Source: Neobacillus dielmonensis
GTDB lineage: Bacteria; Bacillota; Bacilli; Bacillales; Cytobacillaceae
Direction: 5' to 3'
DNA: 64,000 nucleotides
Assembly (NCBI RefSeq): GCF_000612665.1
Contig: NZ_HG942066.1
Coordinates: forward strand, 62,001-126,000
This document shows positions 40,277 through 49,398 of this stretch, in pieces. The notes under the pieces are model-generated. The model saw only the letters and a program-made list of their open reading frames with translations. It was not told where the DNA came from and made no database searches. The position numbers were made by a program, and so were the translations under genes. Numbering within the stretch: position 1 is the first letter of the stretch; each line of letters begins with the position of its first letter.

Positions 40277-40618
40277 CTATTGAAGAAATATCTTACATGC
40301 ATTCCGAAAGAAAGGTGAGCTTTCGATTACTCTTCTGCATGACATCCATGGTTTTCTTATTTTCCAAAGAAGCCCAAGAGGATATTTGTAGTCCCTTCTG
40401 TTGAAAAATAGACTGGTTCCTCCACCAGATTCAATTAAGAAAGGGAATAGATCTTGGAAATGTTCAATAATAACTTTTTTAAGTTCCTTACTTTTAATTG
40501 ATATTCGAACATCAAAATTCGGTTTCCCGTCCAAACCGATTTTTCCTTTCATGCATATGTATGTATATGGTAGGAAAATTCCGGGAGGTGGATATAATGA
40601 ATCGTAGAAGGAGCCCAT
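40277..40618 (-). CDS. Uncertain ORF opposite the PLA2-like gene
   Basis: A 113-codon minus-strand frame whose middle part (GKPNFDVRISIKSKELKKVI, then GGGTSLFFNRRDYKYPLGLL) has plausible protein composition. Its 5' end overlaps the first 22 bases of the PLA2-like gene on the other strand. No family is recognised and no convincing ribosome binding site was seen; ATG starts near 40552-40556 are alternatives. It may be a remnant. Confidence 0.3.
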   Translation of the reverse strand: MGSFYDSLYPPPGIFLPYTYICMKGKIGLDGKPNFDVRISIKSKELKKVIIEHFQDLFPFLIESGGGTSLFFNRRDYKYPLGLLWKIRKPWMSCRRVIESSPFFRNACKIFLQ

Positions 40619-40887
40619 TTTCCCTTTGTGTATTCCCCGGCTACAAATGGTGTGGTCCTGGATGCAGCGGTCCTGGGCGGCCCATTAATGATGTAGACGC
40701 TTGCTGCTATCAGCATGATCGCTGCCTTAGCCAGGGATACTCACCGTGTGAGTGTGATAAGAAATTTATGAATTGCCTCCGGTCCAAAATAAATCCCAAC
40801 ACTCAAAAAGGAAGACAGGCCCTATTAATGTATCAGTTTATGAAGCTTAAAACCCCATTTACTTGCCCTCCCTCAAAATTAAGGTGA
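40597..40887 (+). CDS. Small phospholipase A2-like (parvovirus VP1-type) protein
   Basis: A 96-residue, Cys-rich basic protein. It carries the compact PLA2 core: KWCGPGCSGPGRPINDVDAC provides the glycine-rich calcium loop (CGPG-C-GPG) and Asp, followed by CYQHDRCL with the catalytic His-Asp pair, and CECDKKFMNCL with further Cys. This matches the PLA2-like domain of the parvovirus VP1 N terminus and small Bacillus proteins annotated as such. ATG 40597 has GGGAGGTGG upstream. No signal peptide is visible. It should hydrolyse the sn-2 ester of phospholipids. It stands alone in a mosaic region; a role in spores or membrane attack is unknown. Confidence 0.82.
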   Translation: MNRRRSPFSLCVFPGYKWCGPGCSGPGRPINDVDACCYQHDRCLSQGYSPCECDKKFMNCLRSKINPNTQKGRQALLMYQFMKLKTPFTCPPSKLR

Positions 40888-41679: not shown

Positions 41680-41870
41680 GGCCTCGCTTTTTACAGCGGG
41701 GTAGAGGCGCGGTGTTTAACAGTCCTTAGTGGAGCCTGAGAAGCAATGAGGCTAGGGAGAAGGAAATATCGCCGAAGCTTGTAATATACTCAAATACTAC
41801 TTGCTGGGTCTGCAGTGAATAACTGCAGGACTGTCTCAATAAACTTCCCGGTTTATTGAGGAGTGCTATC
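41680..41870 (+). promoter_or_regulatory. Lysine riboswitch (L box)
   Basis: The lysine aptamer landmarks occur in order: GGTAGAGGCGCG at 41700-41711, GAAGGAAATATCGCCGAAGC ending at 41778, TTGCTGGGT at 41801-41809, and a CTGCAG-loop-CTGCAG hairpin ending in GACTGTC near 41835. A further stem (TCAATAAAC with GTTTATTGA, about 41836-41859) and a terminator at 41921-41948 follow, so lysine should stop transcription of the transporter genes. The exact ends of the aptamer are estimated. Confidence 0.9.
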
Positions 41871-41920
41871 TCGATTGAGAAAAAGAGGGGAATTTAAGGA
41901 CGGCTTATGATTATTTATAG

Positions 41921-41949
41921 CGACCTGAGTTCATCTCAGGTCGTTTTTA
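41921..41949 (+). terminator. Expression-platform terminator of the lysine riboswitch
   Basis: CGACCTGAG (41921-41929) pairs with CTCAGGTCG (41935-41943), followed by TTTTT. It lies 70 bases before the binding-protein gene and is the regulated terminator. Confidence 0.88.
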
Positions 41950-42018
41950 TTTTTTCAAAAGCTAGATTACTTAAATCCTACATAGATAGCCAAAAAAAAA
42001 CAGGGGGAGAGGAAAAAA

Positions 42019-42861
42019 ATGAAAAGAACTTTATCCATTTTTATTGTTATGCTTGTTTCGGTTGTTATGTTAGCGGCTTGTGGATCCAATGATTCTTCTG
42101 AATCCAAGACAGCCTCAGCAAAAGATGATAACACGTTTAAAGTAGGGATGGAAGCAGGTTATGCTCCATTTAACTGGACACAAAACAATGATTCAAATGG
42201 CGGTGTTAAAATTCAAGGTGCTTCCGAATATGCCGGCGGTTATGATGTGGAAATCGCCAAGAAAATCGCTGATGGTTTGGGCAAAAAATTAGTGATTGTG
42301 AAAACCGAATGGGATGGACTCGTACCAGCGTTAACTTCAGGGAAAGTTGATGCGATCATCGCTGGTATGTCACCAACAGCCGAACGTAAAAAGACCATTG
42401 ATTTTTCAGACAACTACTATAAATCAGATTTAGTCATGGTGGTTAAAAAAGGCGGCAAATATGAGAATGCCACTGCTATTCAAGATTTCAAAGGTGCCAA
42501 GGTTACCGCTCAATTAAATACATTCCACTATTCCGTGATTGATCAGATTAAAGGTGTCAACAAGCAGCCGGCCATGGACAACTTCCCAGCAATGAGGGTT
42601 GCCTTAGAGTCTGGTGTCATTGACGGATATGTTTCAGAGCGTCCGGAAGCAGTAAGTGCTTCTAGTGCTAACGAAAACTTTGCCATGGTCGAGTTTAAAG
42701 ATGGCTTTAAGACTTCAGACGATGATACAGCCATAGCAGTTGGTGTGCAAAAAGACAGTGAGCTAACCAAGAAAATAAACGAAGTTTTATCGGGTATTTC
42801 TGAAGATGAGCGCACCAGCATCATGGACGAAGCCATTAAAAATCAGCCTGCAGCAAAATAA
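42019..42861 (+). CDS. Amino-acid ABC transporter binding lipoprotein, probable lysine
   Basis: A 280-residue lipoprotein. The signal peptide ends at lipobox LAAC (Cys21). The mature part is a family 3 solute-binding protein: NTFKVGMEAGYAPFNWTQ, GGYDVEIAKKIADGLGKKL, VDAIIAGMSPTAERKKTIDF and SGVIDGYVSERPEAV. It captures a polar or basic amino acid for the permease and ATPase encoded downstream. The lysine riboswitch in front makes lysine the best guess. GGGGGAGAGG precedes the ATG. A terminator behind it separates it partly from the permease gene. Confidence 0.93.
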   Translation: MKRTLSIFIVMLVSVVMLAACGSNDSSESKTASAKDDNTFKVGMEAGYAPFNWTQNNDSNGGVKIQGASEYAGGYDVEIAKKIADGLGKKLVIVKTEWDGLVPALTSGKVDAIIAGMSPTAERKKTIDFSDNYYKSDLVMVVKKGGKYENATAIQDFKGAKVTAQLNTFHYSVIDQIKGVNKQPAMDNFPAMRVALESGVIDGYVSERPEAVSASSANENFAMVEFKDGFKTSDDDTAIAVGVQKDSELTKKINEVLSGISEDERTSIMDEAIKNQPAAK

Positions 42862-42874
42862 CATGCCGAGTTAG

Positions 42875-42904
42875 ACCGGCTGCATCAAATGCAGTCGGTT
42901 TTTA
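42875..42904 (+). terminator. Terminator behind the binding-protein gene
   Basis: ACCGGCTGCA (42875-42884) pairs with TGCAGTCGGT (42890-42899) with one G-T wobble, followed by T. It probably lowers permease and ATPase expression relative to the binding protein. Confidence 0.85.
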
Positions 42905-43204
42905 TCATCTGTGGATTGACACAACCTCCCGAGCATGACTTGGACAATATTAGCTCGATGGGGACCGAACTGTTTTGTCTGAAAGTGTTAGGGGCGGAAT
43001 AGTGATTACCGACCGAACAAGAGGAATTTGGTTTGGATGAGTTGGTAATCGAGCTCACTATCTCAGAATAGATAAATGGGAACGTGGGTAACGATAAGTG
43101 GCAAATTTAACACCTATATAAAAAATACTCCTATGGATTTCGAAATAACACAACTCTATATATAAAACAGTAACGTAACTAATTAAAAATGAGGAGGAGA
43201 ACTT
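42905..43204. other. Spacer between the binding-protein and permease genes
   Basis: A frame interrupted by two stops (about 42936-43071, ending GLDELVIELTISE) looks like a short decayed gene inserted in the transporter operon. The final 40 bases hold the GAGGAGGAG ribosome binding site of the permease. I could not identify a strong second promoter. Confidence 0.35.
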
Positions 43205-43969
43205 ATGACGTTGGATTGGTTAATGATAATCATAAAAGAAAACTGGCCGATGTTCCTTCGCGGGGCAGGAATGACACTGTTAATCTCGTTAATCGGTACA
43301 GTGATTGGCTCCATCATTGGTATGCTGATAGGCGTGATCCGTACCATCCCGGTTCCGGAAGAAGGGGTCAAAAGGGGCCTGTTAAAACTGGTTAATGCTA
43401 TTTTATCTATTTATATTGAATTTTTCCGTGGAACACCAATGATTGTCCAGGCCATGGTCATTTATTATGGTTCAGCACTGGCATTTGGCTTTGATATGGA
43501 CCGTGTCGTTGCAGCAATTTTTATCGTATCCATCAATACAGGTGCTTATATGTCAGAAATTGTCCGAGGCGGGATTGTATCAATTGATAAGGGGCAATTC
43601 GAAGCTGCCCATGCAATTGGGATGAATCACTTCCAAACCATGATTAATGTCGTGCTGCCACAAGCGATTCGTAATATCTTACCGGCAACAGGTAATGAAT
43701 TTGTCATTAATATTAAAGATACTTCTGTATTGAATGTTATCTCTGTTTCAGAGTTATTTTTCCAAACCAAATCGATTGCCGGAAATAACTTCCGCTATTT
43801 TGAATCGTTCTTTGTTGCCAGTGTCCTCTATTTAATCATGACCTTTACGGTTACAAGGATTCTACGTTATGTTGAGCGGAAATTGGATGGCCCAGATAAC
43901 TACGATATGATTATGATGGGCAATCAAATGCAGGTGGAAACACCAGTTATCAAGGAAAAAAATAGGTAG
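43205..43969 (+). CDS. Amino-acid ABC transporter permease (HisM/GlnP type)
   Basis: A 254-residue membrane protein with the polar amino-acid permease signatures: MFLRGAGMTLLISLIGTVIG, EFFRGTPMIVQAMVIYYG, and the EAA loop EAAHAIGMNHFQTMINVVLP. About five spans are visible. It forms a homodimeric channel with the ATPase encoded 15 bases downstream. Position behind the riboswitch-controlled lipoprotein suggests lysine. Confidence 0.95.
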   Translation: MTLDWLMIIIKENWPMFLRGAGMTLLISLIGTVIGSIIGMLIGVIRTIPVPEEGVKRGLLKLVNAILSIYIEFFRGTPMIVQAMVIYYGSALAFGFDMDRVVAAIFIVSINTGAYMSEIVRGGIVSIDKGQFEAAHAIGMNHFQTMINVVLPQAIRNILPATGNEFVINIKDTSVLNVISVSELFFQTKSIAGNNFRYFESFFVASVLYLIMTFTVTRILRYVERKLDGPDNYDMIMMGNQMQVETPVIKEKNR

Positions 43970-43984
43970 AGGGAGGCCTGACAT

Positions 43985-44725
43985 ATGGATGCAGTAATTG
44001 ATATTCAACATCTAAGTAAAGCTTTCGGTTCACATCAAGTGTTAAAGGATATTGATTTTTCCGTTAAGAAAGGCGAAGTGGTCTGTATTATTGGTTCTTC
44101 TGGATCGGGTAAATCCACGCTCCTTCGTTGTATTAATTTGTTAGAAAAACCAACGGGCGGACAAATTATTTATCATAATGAAAATATTCTCGATAAAAAA
44201 CATGATATTACAGCTTATCGGACCAAGCTAGGCATGGTGTTCCAGCAATTCAACCTGTTTAATAACCACAATGTTTTAAACAATTGTGTAGTCGGCCAAA
44301 TCAAGGTGTTAAAACGGTCCAGGGAAGACGCTGAAAAAGTGGCCATGAAGTACCTGAAAGTGGTTGGCATGGATAAGTATATTAATGCCAAACCTAAACA
44401 ATTATCGGGCGGGCAAAAGCAGCGGGTTGCCATTGCCAGAGCGTTAGCAATGGAACCGGATGTGTTATTGTTTGACGAGCCGACATCCGCTCTTGACCCT
44501 GAGATGGTAGGGGAAGTCCTCAAAGTTATGAAAGAACTGGCAGAATCGGGTCTGACCATGCTGGTCGTTACTCACGAAATGGGCTTCGCTAAGGAAGTAT
44601 CAGACCGCGTCGTTTTCATGGACAAAGGCGTCATCGCCGAGGAAGGAACCCCAGACCAAATCTTCAACCATCCAAAAGAAGAACGAACCAAAGAATTTCT
44701 ACAAAGAACACGAAATTCCATATGA
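43985..44725 (+). CDS. Amino-acid ABC transporter ATP-binding protein (GlnQ type)
   Basis: A 246-residue ATPase with Walker [16 protein letters not shown]-loop [14 protein letters not shown], signature [16 protein letters not shown], Walker [17 protein letters not shown] and H-loop VVTHEMGFA. This set is that of the polar amino-acid uptake family. It completes the importer begun at 42019. AGGGAGG precedes the ATG. A large hairpin repeat follows. Confidence 0.96.
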
Positions 44726-44867: not shown

Positions 44868-45728
44868 GTGTTTTATCATGTGAAGGAATTGCAATACCAA
44901 GCCAAGCCGGAAAGACCGGATCCGTTAATGGCGAAATATCTTCAGGAATTATTGGGCGGCCAAGCCGGGGAAATTACGGTCATGATGCAGTATTTATTTC
45001 AGGGATTTAATGTCCGTGGAAATGGAAAATACAAGGATTTATTAATGGATACTGGAACGGAAGAACTCGCCCATATTGAGATGTTGGCAACCATGATTGC
45101 CCGCTTATTGGATGGTGCTCCAGTTGGTGATCAAATGGCTGCAGCTGAAAATCCGATTATCGGAGCGATCCTCGGAGGCATGAATCCGCAACATGCCATT
45201 GTTTCGGGGCTGGGTGCTATGCCATCAGATAGTGTCGGCAATCGTTGGAGGGCAGAATATATAGCGGCCAGCGGCAACTTATTAGCAGATATGCGGTCAA
45301 ATCTGCACGCTGAATCGCACAGCCGGCTGCAAGCTGTCAGAGTTTATGAGATGTCTACTGACCGCGGTGTGAAGGATATGCTGTCATGGTTAATTGCCAG
45401 GGATACCATGCACCAGAACCAATGGATTGCTGCCATCCAGGAGCTTGAGGCGCAAGAGAATATTGTCGTGCCGAGCACATTCCCACGAGATTTGGAAAAA
45501 CGGGAGGTTTCTCATGTGCTGTTTAACTTCTCTGCAGGCAACGAGAGTGCGACGGGACGTTGGGCTAACGGACCAAGTATGGATGGAGAAGGAACGTTCC
45601 AATATGTAGAAAACCCTGTTCCCCTTGCTCCAAAGCCAAAATTAAAACCAGCACCGCCTTATATTCATGACACGCCGCCTTCTGTGATTAAAGGTCAGGC
45701 AGGTGGGATTCCTCCAAGTATGTATTAA
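44868..45728 (+). CDS. Manganese catalase
   Basis: A 286-residue protein of the non-heme catalase family. The four-helix ferritin-like core supplies metal ligands in GGQAGEITVMMQYLFQ, TGTEELAHIEMLATMI, NLHAESHSRLQAVRVYEMS and IARDTMHQNQWIAA, with the expected Glu and His pairs. The Pro-rich C-terminal tail (LAPKPKLKPAPPYIHDTPPS) is typical of Bacillus forms that are found in spore coats. It splits hydrogen peroxide. The start is GTG 44868 with AGGAGG upstream. It is a single gene. Confidence 0.93.
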   Translation: MFYHVKELQYQAKPERPDPLMAKYLQELLGGQAGEITVMMQYLFQGFNVRGNGKYKDLLMDTGTEELAHIEMLATMIARLLDGAPVGDQMAAAENPIIGAILGGMNPQHAIVSGLGAMPSDSVGNRWRAEYIAASGNLLADMRSNLHAESHSRLQAVRVYEMSTDRGVKDMLSWLIARDTMHQNQWIAAIQELEAQENIVVPSTFPRDLEKREVSHVLFNFSAGNESATGRWANGPSMDGEGTFQYVENPVPLAPKPKLKPAPPYIHDTPPSVIKGQAGGIPPSMY

Positions 45729-45765: not shown

Positions 45766-45794
45766 TTGAAAATGGATGTCTATTATGCTAGCAT
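45766..45794 (+). promoter_or_regulatory. SigA promoter of the PyrR-controlled leader
   Basis: TTGAAA (45766-45771), 17 bases, and TAGCAT (45789-45794) preceded by TGC as an extended -10. Confidence 0.6.
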
Positions 45795-45812
45795 TATAGC
45801 GACAAAATACTA

Positions 45813-45845
45813 CCTTTAAAGCGGTCCAGAGAGGCCGAAAAGGCG
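45813..45845 (+). promoter_or_regulatory. PyrR-binding RNA hairpin 1
   Basis: CCTTT/AAAGG lower stem with CGG/CCG upper stem around the loop TCCAGAGAGG. This is the known PyrR-binding loop of Bacillus pyr attenuators. UMP-bound PyrR would hold this hairpin and so favour the downstream terminator. Confidence 0.88.
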
Positions 45846-45879
45846 CTGATTGTATATATTTAATTCTATCAGTATATCC

Positions 45880-45918
45880 AAGCCCTTTTGCACTCTCTGT
45901 GTCAAAAGGGCTTTTATT
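45880..45918 (+). terminator. PyrR-attenuator terminator
   Basis: AAGCCCTTTTG (45880-45890) pairs perfectly with CAAAAGGGCTT (45903-45913), followed by a T-rich tail. It lies between the two PyrR hairpins and 120 bases before the MFS gene. Confidence 0.88.
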
Positions 45919-45939
45919 TTTAAAAAAACTTACTTGTGC

Positions 45940-45975
45940 CTCTTTTAAAGCAAGTCCAGTGAGGCTTGAAAAGAG
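45940..45975 (+). promoter_or_regulatory. PyrR-binding RNA hairpin 2
   Basis: CTCTTTT/AAAAGAG lower stem and CAAG/CTTG upper stem around loop TCCAGTGAGG. It matches the PyrR loop pattern a second time. A short following stem (GAATGGAA with TTCCATTC, 45975-45997) overlaps its end. Confidence 0.82.
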
Positions 45976-46038
45976 AATGGAAGAATTTTTTCCATTCCTC
46001 GAAAACATTAAGGCAAAAGATATTGGAGGATGGAACAA

Positions 46039-47265
46039 ATGGATTATCGTAAAAAAACAGTTGTGGCTTCAGTAGCAGGTTTAACGCTAGAAGGAATGGA
46101 CATCATGTTTATTTCTTTTGCTATGTCGATGATTATTTCTGAGTTTCATATTGATTTGGCGACAGGCGGACTTATTTCTTCCATCACCAATCTTGGAATG
46201 CTAGCCGGGGGCGTCTTATTCGGAATTTTGGCCGATAAGTTTGGCCGGGTACGGGTCTTTACCTATACTGTACTGTTGTTTGCGCTGGGAACTGCCCTAA
46301 CGGGAATAGCCAACAATATTGACCAAGTGTATGTATTTAGATTCATTGCCGGACTTGGAGCTGGTGGAGAGTATGGCATTGGCATGACTTTAGTTGCCGA
46401 AGCTTGGCCAAAGAATAAACAAGGAAGAGCGTCATCATACGTTAGCGTCGGTGCCCAATATGGTGTGATTCTTGCAGCGCTTTTAAGTGCGATGATTTTA
46501 CCGGCATTTGGCTGGAGAGCCTTGTTCTTTGTCGGAATCGTTCCCGTGATTTTCGCCTTCATTGTACGTAAGAACCTAAAGGAATCCCCTGAATGGGTAA
46601 GGTTGGGAAAGAATAAACAAGATGGTAGCAAAAAAGACAAAATGAAGCTGGCCCAGTTGTTTGAAACCCCGCAAACCGCCATGACCACAGTGGGACTGGC
46701 CATCATGGCCACTGTTCAGATTGCGGGGTACAACGGGTTAATGATTTGGCTGCCTTCCATGCTGCAGCAATCACAGGGGTTATCGGTCTCCAGTTCAGCA
46801 ATTTGGACCATTAGTACGGCTGTTGGGATGATGATTGGGATGTTAACCTTTGGGCAATTCATGGACAGGCTTGGAGCCAAGCGTGCCTATGGAATCTTCC
46901 TGTTAGCCTCTGCATGTGCTGTCTTCCTGTACTCTTATGCAACAGGAAGTGCCGGAGTTTTAATTGGCGGTGCGGTTGTCGGTTTTTTTTCAAACGGAAT
47001 GTTTGCGGGCTATGGCGCACTGATTAGCAGTTTTTATCCGGTTCAAATTAGAAGTACCGCCACGAACACCATCTTTAATTTCGGTAGAGCGCTTGGCGGT
47101 TTATCGCCAATCCTAGTGGGATATATCCTGCAGCATTATAACATGACCACGGCGATGATTTACTTAGCCGTTCTATACTGCTTATCCTTTGTGGTCATGC
47201 TTAGCCTTAAAAAAGGACAGCAAAACCGTACAATCAAAATCATGAATGCAGTTGAATCGAACTAA
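46039..47265 (+). CDS. MFS transporter (aromatic acid:H+ symporter-like) under PyrR control
   Basis: A 408-residue carrier with twelve expected spans. It opens with AGLTLEGMDIMFISFAMSMI and has the loop motif GILADKFGRVRVF, FIAGLGAGGEYGIGMTLVAE and AEAWPKNKQGRA, as in the AAHS branch that carries aromatic and heteroaromatic acids such as niacin. The leader has two PyrR hairpins and an attenuator, so uptake should rise when UMP is low. That points to orotate or another pyrimidine precursor as substrate; this is inference. ATG 46039 is chosen with TTGGAGG at 46023-46029. Confidence 0.9.
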   Translation: MDYRKKTVVASVAGLTLEGMDIMFISFAMSMIISEFHIDLATGGLISSITNLGMLAGGVLFGILADKFGRVRVFTYTVLLFALGTALTGIANNIDQVYVFRFIAGLGAGGEYGIGMTLVAEAWPKNKQGRASSYVSVGAQYGVILAALLSAMILPAFGWRALFFVGIVPVIFAFIVRKNLKESPEWVRLGKNKQDGSKKDKMKLAQLFETPQTAMTTVGLAIMATVQIAGYNGLMIWLPSMLQQSQGLSVSSSAIWTISTAVGMMIGMLTFGQFMDRLGAKRAYGIFLLASACAVFLYSYATGSAGVLIGGAVVGFFSNGMFAGYGALISSFYPVQIRSTATNTIFNFGRALGGLSPILVGYILQHYNMTTAMIYLAVLYCLSFVVMLSLKKGQQNRTIKIMNAVESN

Positions 47266-47628: not shown

Positions 47629-49398
47629 TTATTTATTTGTACTAAGTGAAGATAAGTCAATATAACCAATGTTCCCAGGGTTTTGTGACCCGACCATTAA
47701 GTAGGAATGGCCATTTAACTCATCGACGGCTTGAATTCCGGTCACTTCTCCGCCATCCGGTGCAGAAATAATACGGGAAAGTTTCTTGGTCTCGACATTA
47801 TAGGCCCAGCCATAGTTATTCGTATGCATGTCACTGTCTTCTGCGATGAATAACGTCCTATATTTTTCAGAAAAAGCAAGATTGTCAGGGTTAGCGATCT
47901 TTTCAAGGTTGGCTTTGTTACCTTCTGCATCAGCCGCAGCCAGGTCTTCACCTGTTACCAAAGCGGCCATCTTGGTGACAACATAATCACTTTCGATTGT
48001 TTGTCCATCACGATCTTTTTGTCCATCTGCTAGACTCATTTCATACACGGCCCCGGCGCTCAGCTTCGGCAAGTGGATATCATCTGCAGGATCCATCGGA
48101 TTTGCGGTCATGCCTTTTTCAACATAGGACATGGCCATATATATTTTATTGTCGGCTTTGTTGAATGTGAGAGTTTCCATCTTATTAAACTCAGAAGTGG
48201 CCCCAAGAATCGCTCCATAGCGGCGGGATTCGAGGAACGCAGCCGCTTTTTCCATACCAGGTTTCACTTTCAGCCATTCAGTTGTCTTGCCGCCATTGGA
48301 ATTGGTCTTTATTTCTTTAAATCCATTTGCTTGGCCATAAGCAGCATCTGTAGTTGTTTCAAAAATATCGCTGAAAGTTACATTCTGAGCCATTTCTTTT
48401 ACTTCTTTATCGGTGGCATGACCTAACTTAATCCACTCAATAGTAGCTGAACCGCCGTTTTGGTCACTTGTTTGGTTCCATTTTGCTGCATATAAGGTAC
48501 CAGCTGATAGATCTTTTTCTTTGTCTGCCACATACATGAACGACATGGTATAGCCGCCGTCATCACCAAAATAAACGGTCCGGTTATCAGGTGCTACCGT
48601 TACGTTTTCAAAAGATAAACGTCCCATGCTGTAGTGCTTAACAGCTGATGCTTCACCATTAGGGTGAACCTTCACTTCGGTTGTATGCCCATAAAGGTAG
48701 GGATTGCCGACAACAGCATCATTTTGATAATAATTACGGGCAAACTGAGTAACAGCGGACTTTTCAGGATTTGCTTCATGGGCACGGGCATCCGGCTCAT
48801 ATTCCTCACTGCCTAAATGGGTATTCCAAGGAGATAAGACTCCGGCACAAGGTGTCCAAACACCGCCATCAGCTGAAAAATCAATAGGATTGAGATCAGT
48901 AATTTTCAGTTCACCTGTTTTTTTGTCTTGTTCCACTGTATTGAGGTACAGCGCTTTTGGCATATTCCCAATTTCATTATTAGGCATGCTTTCAAAGTGG
49001 TTAATCAAAAATAGTTTACCACTTTTTCCATTTACGCTAAGAAGCGTGTTGGCGTCAGGTGCTGTCGAAACGATTGGGCTTCCGTTTTTGTCTCTTATGA
49101 TGTTGCCATTCACATCATAAGCGGCACCGACAACTTTTCCGTTAATAACTTCACCAGGCTGTGCTAAATCATGATATTGAAGAGGTACCGTTTTCTGAGT
49201 TCCGTCGTTAAGTGTGACAAGTGCTGATGCCTCACTATACATAGAAGATTTTTCGGCATCCGTACTAGGAGCATCCATACCTATAAATTCTACCGATTTT
49301 ACGGAAACAGGTTTGTAAGGGTCAGCATATACATTTACGGCTGATGGAAATAGAATGGCTGCGCTTAGCAGTGGAACCATGAATTTGCTTGTTTTCAT
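47629..49398 (-). CDS. phoX: PhoX-type alkaline phosphatase (DUF839)
   Basis: A 589-residue exported protein. Residues 1-25 form a signal peptide (FMVPLLSAAILFPSAVNVYA). The mature part has the PhoX/DUF839 character: LFLINHFESMPNNEIG, GVLSPWNTHLGSEEYEPDAR, FENVTVAPDNRTVYFGDDGG, and NPDNLAFSEKYRTLFIAEDS. Acidic residues in these segments bind calcium and iron in known PhoX. It releases phosphate from organic esters outside the cell. Four PhoP half-sites with 11-bp spacing lie upstream, so it should be induced by phosphate starvation. AGGAGG precedes the ATG. Confidence 0.88.
   Translation of the reverse strand: MKTSKFMVPLLSAAILFPSAVNVYADPYKPVSVKSVEFIGMDAPSTDAEKSSMYSEASALVTLNDGTQKTVPLQYHDLAQPGEVINGKVVGAAYDVNGNIIRDKNGSPIVSTAPDANTLLSVNGKSGKLFLINHFESMPNNEIGNMPKALYLNTVEQDKKTGELKITDLNPIDFSADGGVWTPCAGVLSPWNTHLGSEEYEPDARAHEANPEKSAVTQFARNYYQNDAVVGNPYLYGHTTEVKVHPNGEASAVKHYSMGRLSFENVTVAPDNRTVYFGDDGGYTMSFMYVADKEKDLSAGTLYAAKWNQTSDQNGGSATIEWIKLGHATDKEVKEMAQNVTFSDIFETTTDAAYGQANGFKEIKTNSNGGKTTEWLKVKPGMEKAAAFLESRRYGAILGATSEFNKMETLTFNKADNKIYMAMSYVEKGMTANPMDPADDIHLPKLSAGAVYEMSLADGQKDRDGQTIESDYVVTKMAALVTGEDLAAADAEGNKANLEKIANPDNLAFSEKYRTLFIAEDSDMHTNNYGWAYNVETKKLSRIISAPDGGEVTGIQAVDELNGHSYLMVGSQNPGNIGYIDLSSLSTNK

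Follow-up and report, generated by a model that had tools for sequence, protein, structure and literature searches.

Transcription of the pyrimidine (pyr) operons of Bacillus is controlled by attenuators in which, at high uridine monophosphate (UMP), the regulator PyrR holds a hairpin of the leader RNA, the antiterminator is blocked and transcription stops at a terminator. PyrR-dependent translational repression, with the PyrR hairpin near the coding start, was reportedly described in Mycobacterium smegmatis by Fields and Switzer in 2007. With regard to carriers, the major facilitator superfamily (MFS) is class 2.A.1 of the transporter classification (TC), class 2.A.7 lies outside it, and the C4-dicarboxylate carrier DctA belongs to a family other than the MFS. 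In the passages available from two papers, OroP of Lactococcus lactis is an orotate transporter filed under TC 2.A.7.21.4 (PMC12802215) and DctA takes up orotate in Escherichia coli and Salmonella (PMC13328217). Bacillus subtilis made to produce OroP is reported to be arrested by 5-fluoroorotate (PMC12802215). The present analysis concerns a stretch of 64,000 nucleotides of Neobacillus dielmonensis, hereafter the window, in which the gene for an MFS carrier follows a leader with two predicted PyrR hairpins.

The best explanation of this arrangement, held with considerable confidence on the evidence of sequence, is that the gene encodes an MFS orotate importer switched by PyrR. At high UMP, PyrR would sit on leader hairpin 1 and transcription would terminate before the carrier gene; at low UMP, hairpin 1 would open into the antiterminator and the carrier would be made. 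Imported orotate would then be converted to UMP by PyrE and PyrF, both of which are encoded in the pyr operon of the genome. The second PyrR hairpin, past the terminator, would place a further check on escaped transcripts, most likely by lowering translation initiation. A wider proposal, which is tentative and falls slightly short of an even chance, is that a widespread unnamed MFS family imports orotate and that PyrR controls the mRNA of its Bacillales members at two points, at termination (site 1) and then at ribosome entry (site 2). Short leaders would act directly via a Shine-Dalgarno stem, and long leaders via an additional hairpin with a 3′ arm able to pair with the Shine-Dalgarno sequence.

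The leader and its first PyrR site

The features of the leader and gene are as follows.

45766 to 45794, plus strand: promoter-like sequence, TTGAAA, 17 nucleotides and TAGCAT preceded by TG, 9 of 12 consensus positions
45813 to 45843, plus strand: predicted PyrR-binding hairpin 1, loop TCCAGAGAGG at 45825–45834, folding at −8.0 kcal/mol
45880 to 45921, plus strand: intrinsic terminator, stem-loop and U tract, −19.8 kcal/mol
45940 to 45975, plus strand: predicted PyrR-binding hairpin 2, loop TCCAGTGAGG at 45955–45964
45975 to 45997, extendable to 46000, plus strand: hairpin 3, seen in the sequence as GAATGGAA and TTCCATTC, then CTC
46025 to 46029, plus strand: Shine-Dalgarno sequence GGAGG, 9 nucleotides before the ATG at 46039
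46039 to 47265, plus strand: gene for an MFS carrier of 408 amino acids, predicted orotate importer (PF07690, TIGR00895 and the contexts of homologues)

Both PyrR loops thus lie where an earlier note on this DNA had placed them. The start codon is most likely the ATG at 46039, which with GGAGG at 46025–46029 is preferred to the start at 46030 given previously. Promoter-like sites in this region exceed chance only slightly, with seven found against a mean of 3.8 (standard deviation 2.0) in shuffled sequence. A simple consensus scan did not list the terminator, a bulge in the stem being the probable cause.

A scan of the whole window with cmscan matched the Rfam PyrR family, RF00515, at 45809–45921 with 57.8 bits against a gathering cut-off of 54. 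This model includes a terminator besides the PyrR hairpin, and site 2, which has no terminator 3′ of it, scored 39.6 bits in a genome-wide scan, under the cut-off. A model of the hairpin alone was built, with the window excluded, from 48 selected PyrR sites, which included homologue leaders and one pyr site of the same genome. It gave 48.6 bits (E 4e-7) to site 2 and 42.4 bits (E 6e-6) to site 1, and nothing else in the 64 kb scored above 16.7 bits. Covariation is seen in the stems of 48 chosen hairpins (16 of site 1, 16 of site 2 and 16 taken from PyrR sites elsewhere in this genome and in others), with 38 double-change cells against 13.3 after shuffling. Genome-wide, five RF00515 places score above 39 bits, namely the two window sites and three in the pyr operon, before and between its first genes; the sixth scores 26.6 bits. 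The same genome carries an intact pyrR (NF003549, 270.2 bits against a cut-off of 138) at the head of a pyr operon that looks complete and runs pyrR-pyrP-pyrB-pyrC-pyrAA-pyrAB-pyrK-pyrD-pyrF-pyrE, in which PyrR was named by NCBIfam, PyrP as an NCS2 carrier and the remainder by eye and gene order.

Close homologues of the carrier were taken as the best 80 of 242 relatives (78–86% identity), giving 81 leaders with that of the window; as titled, their genera are Neobacillus, Lysinibacillus, Peribacillus, Paenibacillus, Niallia, Priestia, Sporosarcina and others. When the same leader was sought before these homologues, as the earlier note had suggested, a pattern for the loops found site 1 in 74 of the 81, site 2 in 78 and both in 73 within 330 nucleotides, a pattern that arises by chance at a rate of 0.03 per 330 nucleotides in mononucleotide-shuffled leaders. 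Some misses are explained, as L022 has its site 1 farther upstream and the site 2 loops of L051 and L061 deviate from the pattern. Two natural leader mutants were also encountered: L029 has no PyrR site in its 330 nucleotides, the leader appearing to have been replaced by unrelated repeat-like sequence, and L097 retains site 2 only.

The gene itself is accessory, being matched at E 1e-60 in 62 of 193 genomes of the family, eight of which match only at 35–57% identity. It stands alone among its close homologues, since they have no conserved neighbours and the largest neighbour cluster takes in only 11 of 80 loci; the earlier description of a stand-alone carrier holds. One close homologue (G139:C23:483080-484294) contains a single in-frame TAA and may be a decaying copy or a sequencing error.

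Folding indicates how site 1 could operate. Before the 3′ arm of the terminator is added, the antiterminator reaches −25.4 kcal/mol against −16.6 kcal/mol with hairpin 1 forced, and the finished terminator has −19.8 kcal/mol. The antiterminator consists of the PyrR loop and the 3′ side of hairpin 1 paired with the 5′ arm and loop of the terminator, so that by folding the two structures are mutually exclusive in the window leader. A hairpin followed by at least five U in nine nucleotides is found in all 74 leaders that have site 1 (the window included), and 57 of these favour the antiterminator by a margin above 2 kcal/mol. Site 1 folds as a classical antiterminator/terminator switch, that is, as a predicted transcriptional attenuator. 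The pyr-operon design proposed for this leader is upheld by the RF00515 score, the alternative folds and the conservation of the leaders. The accompanying statement that two hairpins flank a terminator is right as to positions, and yet it hides a division of labour in which site 1 would act on transcription and site 2 probably on translation.

Site 2 and two types of leader

The role of site 2 has to be considered separately for two types of leader. In the short leaders (n=29) the start of site 2 lies between −29 and −31, and the lower stem of the site 2 hairpin takes in the Shine-Dalgarno sequence. The calculated probability that this sequence is unpaired averages 0.03 with the hairpin, 0.44 with the hairpin blocked and 0.27 with the leader free, and in all 29 short leaders the hairpin reduces access relative to the blocked state. 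Taken alone, the short leaders show thin covariation, with one pair changed on both sides. In the long leaders (n=49, the window included) the start of site 2 lies between −77 and −134. Behind it comes a GAATGGA/TCCATTC hairpin whose arms hardly vary and whose spacer differs in length (46 of 49 aligned); this is hairpin 3 of the window, the mark of the long type.

For the long leaders, folding reveals a smaller and unclear influence of site 2 on the Shine-Dalgarno sequence. With 33, 6 and 0 nucleotides of coding sequence included, the hairpin reduced access relative to the blocked state in 11 of 49, 16 of 48 and 16 of 48 leaders, and raised it in none, three and five; L030, whose Shine-Dalgarno place is misassigned in the 49-leader folding, was left out of the other two. 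In the window leader the Shine-Dalgarno sequence is unpaired with a probability of 0.20 when the hairpin is forced and 0.26 when it is free or blocked, and with six nucleotides of coding sequence the value even rises, from 0.14 free to 0.20 forced. Across the 48 long leaders, forcing the hairpin raises pairing between the leader and the Shine-Dalgarno sequence from 0.54 to 0.77, and the probability that the latter is unpaired remains almost unchanged (0.20 forced against 0.25). A simple switch in which hairpin 2 frees an anti-Shine-Dalgarno sequence was considered for the long leaders; given the mixed counts we infer it only and do not adopt it as a result. RNAalifold recovered only the upper stem of site 2 in the long leaders, from an input that cut away the 5′ arm of the lower stem in every row except that of the window and is therefore uninformative for the lower stem. 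A short upstream open reading frame between site 2 and the start codon was dropped on inspection, as the in-frame extensions seen in L045 and L087 are not general.

Because of these folding results, translational control by site 2 is considered likely for the short leaders, and in the long leaders, that of the window included, site 2 may act in this way or in another. A substantial if somewhat doubtful alternative is that site 2 is not a translational switch, being instead a second docking place for PyrR that helps to hold the leader, or the remnant of a second attenuator. The small effect in long leaders (lower in 11 of 49 and higher in none, or in 16 and three of 48 with six nucleotides of coding sequence) and the lack of a U tract after hairpin 3 of the window speak for this alternative. 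Against it stand the retention of site 2 in 78 of 81 leaders and the reduced Shine-Dalgarno access in every short leader.

The carrier and its probable substrate

The carrier matches the MFS model PF07690 with 173.5 bits against a Pfam cut-off of 33.4. Its placement in the aromatic-acid branch, made previously, is correct as regards nearest kin, TIGR00895 (aromatic acid/H+ symport), and fails as regards membership, with 280.6 bits against a curated cut-off of 418.55. TIGR00801, the NCS2 model of UraA and PyrP, is not among the best 25 of the carrier's 57 NCBIfam matches, whereas PyrP in the pyr operon of the genome matches it at 434 bits. Five residues, Q140, Q227, W256, N319 and N343, are kept in 75–77 of 77 rows (the window included) and in neither of two outgroup rows. 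Among solved structures kin were found at superfamily level only, the best with E 5e-14.

The substrate is suggested by the surroundings of more distant relatives. Sixty-four distant loci were searched with the Pyr proteins of the genome and five proteins of locus L191; 47 of them come from one order, Lactobacillales-like by its plasmid relatives, in which 87 of 246 genomes have a homologue. In that order pyrF-pyrE lies upstream of the carrier on the same strand at 15 of the 47 loci and divergently at eight, and L206, from another family, also has pyrF-pyrE upstream, so that 24 of the 64 loci are linked. Counted as one locus per genus, linkage is present in 18 of 37 genera of the order, and NCBIfam confirmed the names PyrE and PyrF at the three loci checked (L200, L201 and L206). 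Transfer of the substrate from these carriers to the window protein is an inference, albeit a well supported one. At L190 a protein that by eye resembles a nucleoside phosphorylase follows a second carrier.

A second context is catabolic. Eight of the 64 loci, all outside the Lactobacillales-like order, have, no more than about 7 kb from the carrier, genes for a dihydroorotate dehydrogenase and a carbamoylase of the M20 type, and each also holds a PyrK-like and a dihydroorotase-type match; L206 belongs to both groups. PreA is an enzyme of the uracil pathway, and at the three loci checked with NCBIfam the dehydrogenases score as PyrD and PreA, respectively, 377.3 and 151.3 bits (L206), 375.9 and 123.6 bits (L191) and 369.4 and 139.5 bits (L207). 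Relatives were also found in 79 plasmid records, 53 of them from Klebsiella (one opened). Among the six annotated plasmid relatives opened, those of Klebsiella and Variovorax have the catabolic set, with dihydroorotate dehydrogenase, Zn-dependent hydrolase and dihydroorotase annotated. The former, on a Klebsiella pneumoniae plasmid from milk (NZ_CP050823.1, 1419–7188), encodes a dihydroorotase, a Zn-dependent hydrolase, a dihydroorotate dehydrogenase and the MFS carrier, and looks like an orotate degradation cluster; milk contains orotate according to the available part of one paper (PMC12802215). On the Enterococcus plasmids NZ_CP078506.1 and NZ_CP040462.1, where the relative is about 50% identical, the match also touches an annotated nucleoside phosphorylase.

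The loss of genes points in the same direction. Among 47 genomes that have a homologue, all exceed the cut-off for PyrE and 37 exceed that for PyrB. Two of the remaining ten have no PyrB match and eight have only lower ones (best 167 against 236.95 bits), presumably to other carbamoyltransferases. PyrC, sought in 23 of the 47, was matched in none of the ten and in all 13 tested that have PyrB. At E 1e-8 no dihydroorotate dehydrogenase (PF01180) was matched in six of the ten, and one was matched in all the other 37. The carrier lies beside pyrF-pyrE in nine of the ten genomes with neither PyrB over its cut-off nor a PyrC match and in all six that also lack the dehydrogenase match; viewed from the linkage, PyrB is missing in nine of 23 genomes with it and in one of 24 without. 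Where the enzymes that make orotate are absent, PyrE is useful only if orotate arrives from outside, although uracil salvage may operate alongside. One genome (G712) has two separate divergent modules of carrier and pyrF-pyrE (L274 and L275), with PyrB under the cut-off and PyrC and dihydroorotate dehydrogenase unmatched.

These genomes also bear on the exact compound. It is unlikely that dihydroorotate or N-carbamoyl-L-aspartate is imported instead of orotate, or that several of the three are, even though the catabolic clusters encode enzymes for all of them alike and four of the ten genomes (G690, G610, G708 and G437) keep a dihydroorotate dehydrogenase. In the six with no match to this enzyme neither compound would be usable for UMP, and the operon partners PyrE and PyrF start from orotate. 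Direction cannot be read from sequence alone, which leaves room for an exporter of orotate or another overflow product. This is scarcely credible, as a PyrR attenuator would make the carrier at low UMP, which suits import, and the same six genomes, with PyrE, no PyrB over its cut-off and no match to PyrC or the dehydrogenase, have no known source of orotate to export. The earlier suggestion of a pyrimidine-precursor importer, with orotate as first candidate, is thus strongly, if indirectly, supported by the conserved leaders, the pyrF-pyrE operons, the degradation clusters and the genomes that have lost genes.

PyrR elements also occur at distant loci. RF00515 matches before the carriers of L181–L183 score 57.5–64.8 bits, over the cut-off, and those of L184 (43.9 bits) and L177 (48.8 bits) fall below it. 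The hairpin model gives weak matches upstream of pyrF in three of the 15 pyrF-pyrE-carrier operons (L266, L285 and L286) and in all eight divergent pairs, on the pyrF strand. Singly these distant scores are weak (E 0.001–1.9); with positions judged by eye, 17 of 18 matches lie upstream of the carrier (6) or pyrF (11), the exception being L205:6074. An Rfam match at L176 (41.2 bits), at first taken as a carrier leader, lies on the strand of a divergent pyrF and was reassigned to it.

In a quick tree of 79 rows the window clade contains 13 rows, with 100% support in the Shimodaira–Hasegawa-like approximate likelihood ratio test (SH-aLRT), and its sister (support 94) is the clade with the pyrF-pyrE-linked rows of the Lactobacillales-like order. 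Most carriers of the sister clade have no PyrR leader themselves. The catabolic rows, L206 and the PyrR-led L202–L205 lie outside both clades, so that pyrimidine-linked relatives stand on either side of the window clade. Both outgroup rows have long branches, of which the program warns, and the position of the root is therefore uncertain; should it be correct, the data would be explained most simply by an orotate-linked ancestor.

Several observations weigh against a PyrR-switched orotate importer. Linkage to pyrE, or retention without orotate synthesis, is found in relatives and not beside the window gene, and the genome, provided with PyrP and a complete pyr operon, may have no need of orotate. 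The importer and its response to PyrR rest on comparative evidence, with transport and binding both predicted. The pyrF-pyrE-linked carriers are only 36–48% identical to the window protein, and 24 of the 47 loci of their order have no pyrF-pyrE neighbour. By loop pattern and Rfam no PyrR leader was found on the carriers of L164–L175 (43–58% identity), which are mostly the nearest kin outside the window clade, and the matches in the divergent pairs, being on the pyrF strand, do not demonstrate control of the carrier. Among the opened plasmid relatives, one (42% identity) lies about 4 kb from a gallate dioxygenase gene, another stands among ABC (ATP-binding cassette) and hydantoinase/oxoprolinase genes, and two of the six (Lactobacillales) have no telling neighbour, which indicates that the substrate can drift at about 41% identity.

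Some of this would suit a uracil, nicotinate-like or general aromatic-acid carrier that has fallen under PyrR control, the gallate neighbour in particular, together with the aromatic acid/H+ symport model as nearest curated kin. We regard such a carrier as very unlikely, since the protein falls under the TIGR00895 cut-off, a UraA-type permease is already present in the pyr operon, linkage to pyrF-pyrE and dihydroorotate dehydrogenase recurs, and nearly all close homologues have a PyrR leader.

If an orotate importer is confirmed, a function would be provided for a carrier family whose sole annotation in the six opened plasmid records is ‘MFS transporter’, and it would be seen how bacteria without the early pyrimidine pathway still make UMP from environmental orotate. 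The carrier may moreover help to explain or predict sensitivity to 5-fluoroorotate, the basis of pyrE/pyrF counterselection. In the leader, a single RNA-binding sensor would affect one mRNA at the level of transcription as well as translation, and the natural short and long leaders permit a direct test of such two-level control.

Surrounding genes and comparison with known systems

Directly upstream of the attenuator is a manganese catalase gene (44868–45728; PF05067, 416.6 bits). Before it, at 41694–44725, a lysine riboswitch (RF00168, 108 bits) precedes a gene for a solute-binding protein (SBP_bac_3) and, by eye, an ABC permease and ATPase, likely forming a lysine-controlled amino-acid importer. 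A small cysteine-rich open reading frame at 40498–40887 resembles, by eye and in its motif, a phospholipase A2-like protein. On the minus strand, 47629–49398 encodes a protein of 589 amino acids that is secreted by the look of its start and has no Pfam match at E 0.001.

In the literature, among the matches listed, neither a PyrR-controlled MFS carrier of this kind nor an orotate carrier within the MFS was found, RegPrecise, TCDB, subscription papers and supplementary files being outside the scope; an earlier in-silico prediction of the family is possible. In the portions available, a survey of RNA regulons from 2013 mentions pyrimidine transporters as a group (PMC3766115), and a Bacillus methanolicus transcriptome lists a PyrR site together with an S-adenosylmethionine (SAM) riboswitch before an MFS gene (PMC4342826), which look like overlapping predictions.

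Compared with described carriers, the predicted importer would share with L. lactis OroP the substrate orotate and its conversion to UMP by PyrE and PyrF, and differs from it in TC class, the two being set apart by class description. DctA likewise takes up orotate that feeds PyrE and is set apart by the description of its family. The TIGR00895 carriers, among which we take the NiaP-type nicotinate carriers to be kin, belong to the same superfamily and give the best curated match, whereas the window carrier falls below their cut-off and has five conserved residues absent from the outgroup rows.

The RNA element is of a known kind. As with the Bacillus pyr attenuators (RF00515), three matches to which lie in the pyr operon of this genome, the window leader has a binding hairpin, an overlapping antiterminator and a terminator. 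Unlike them, it would control a stand-alone carrier in place of pyrR, pyrP or pyrB, and it has a second PyrR hairpin past the terminator, towards the ribosome-binding site. With the M. smegmatis repression it shares a PyrR hairpin near the coding start, the Shine-Dalgarno sequence of the short leaders lying in the lower stem; here, however, the leader is from Bacillales and belongs to a transport gene, and the hairpin comes after a transcriptional attenuator. What is new is the target of the element and its doubled layout.

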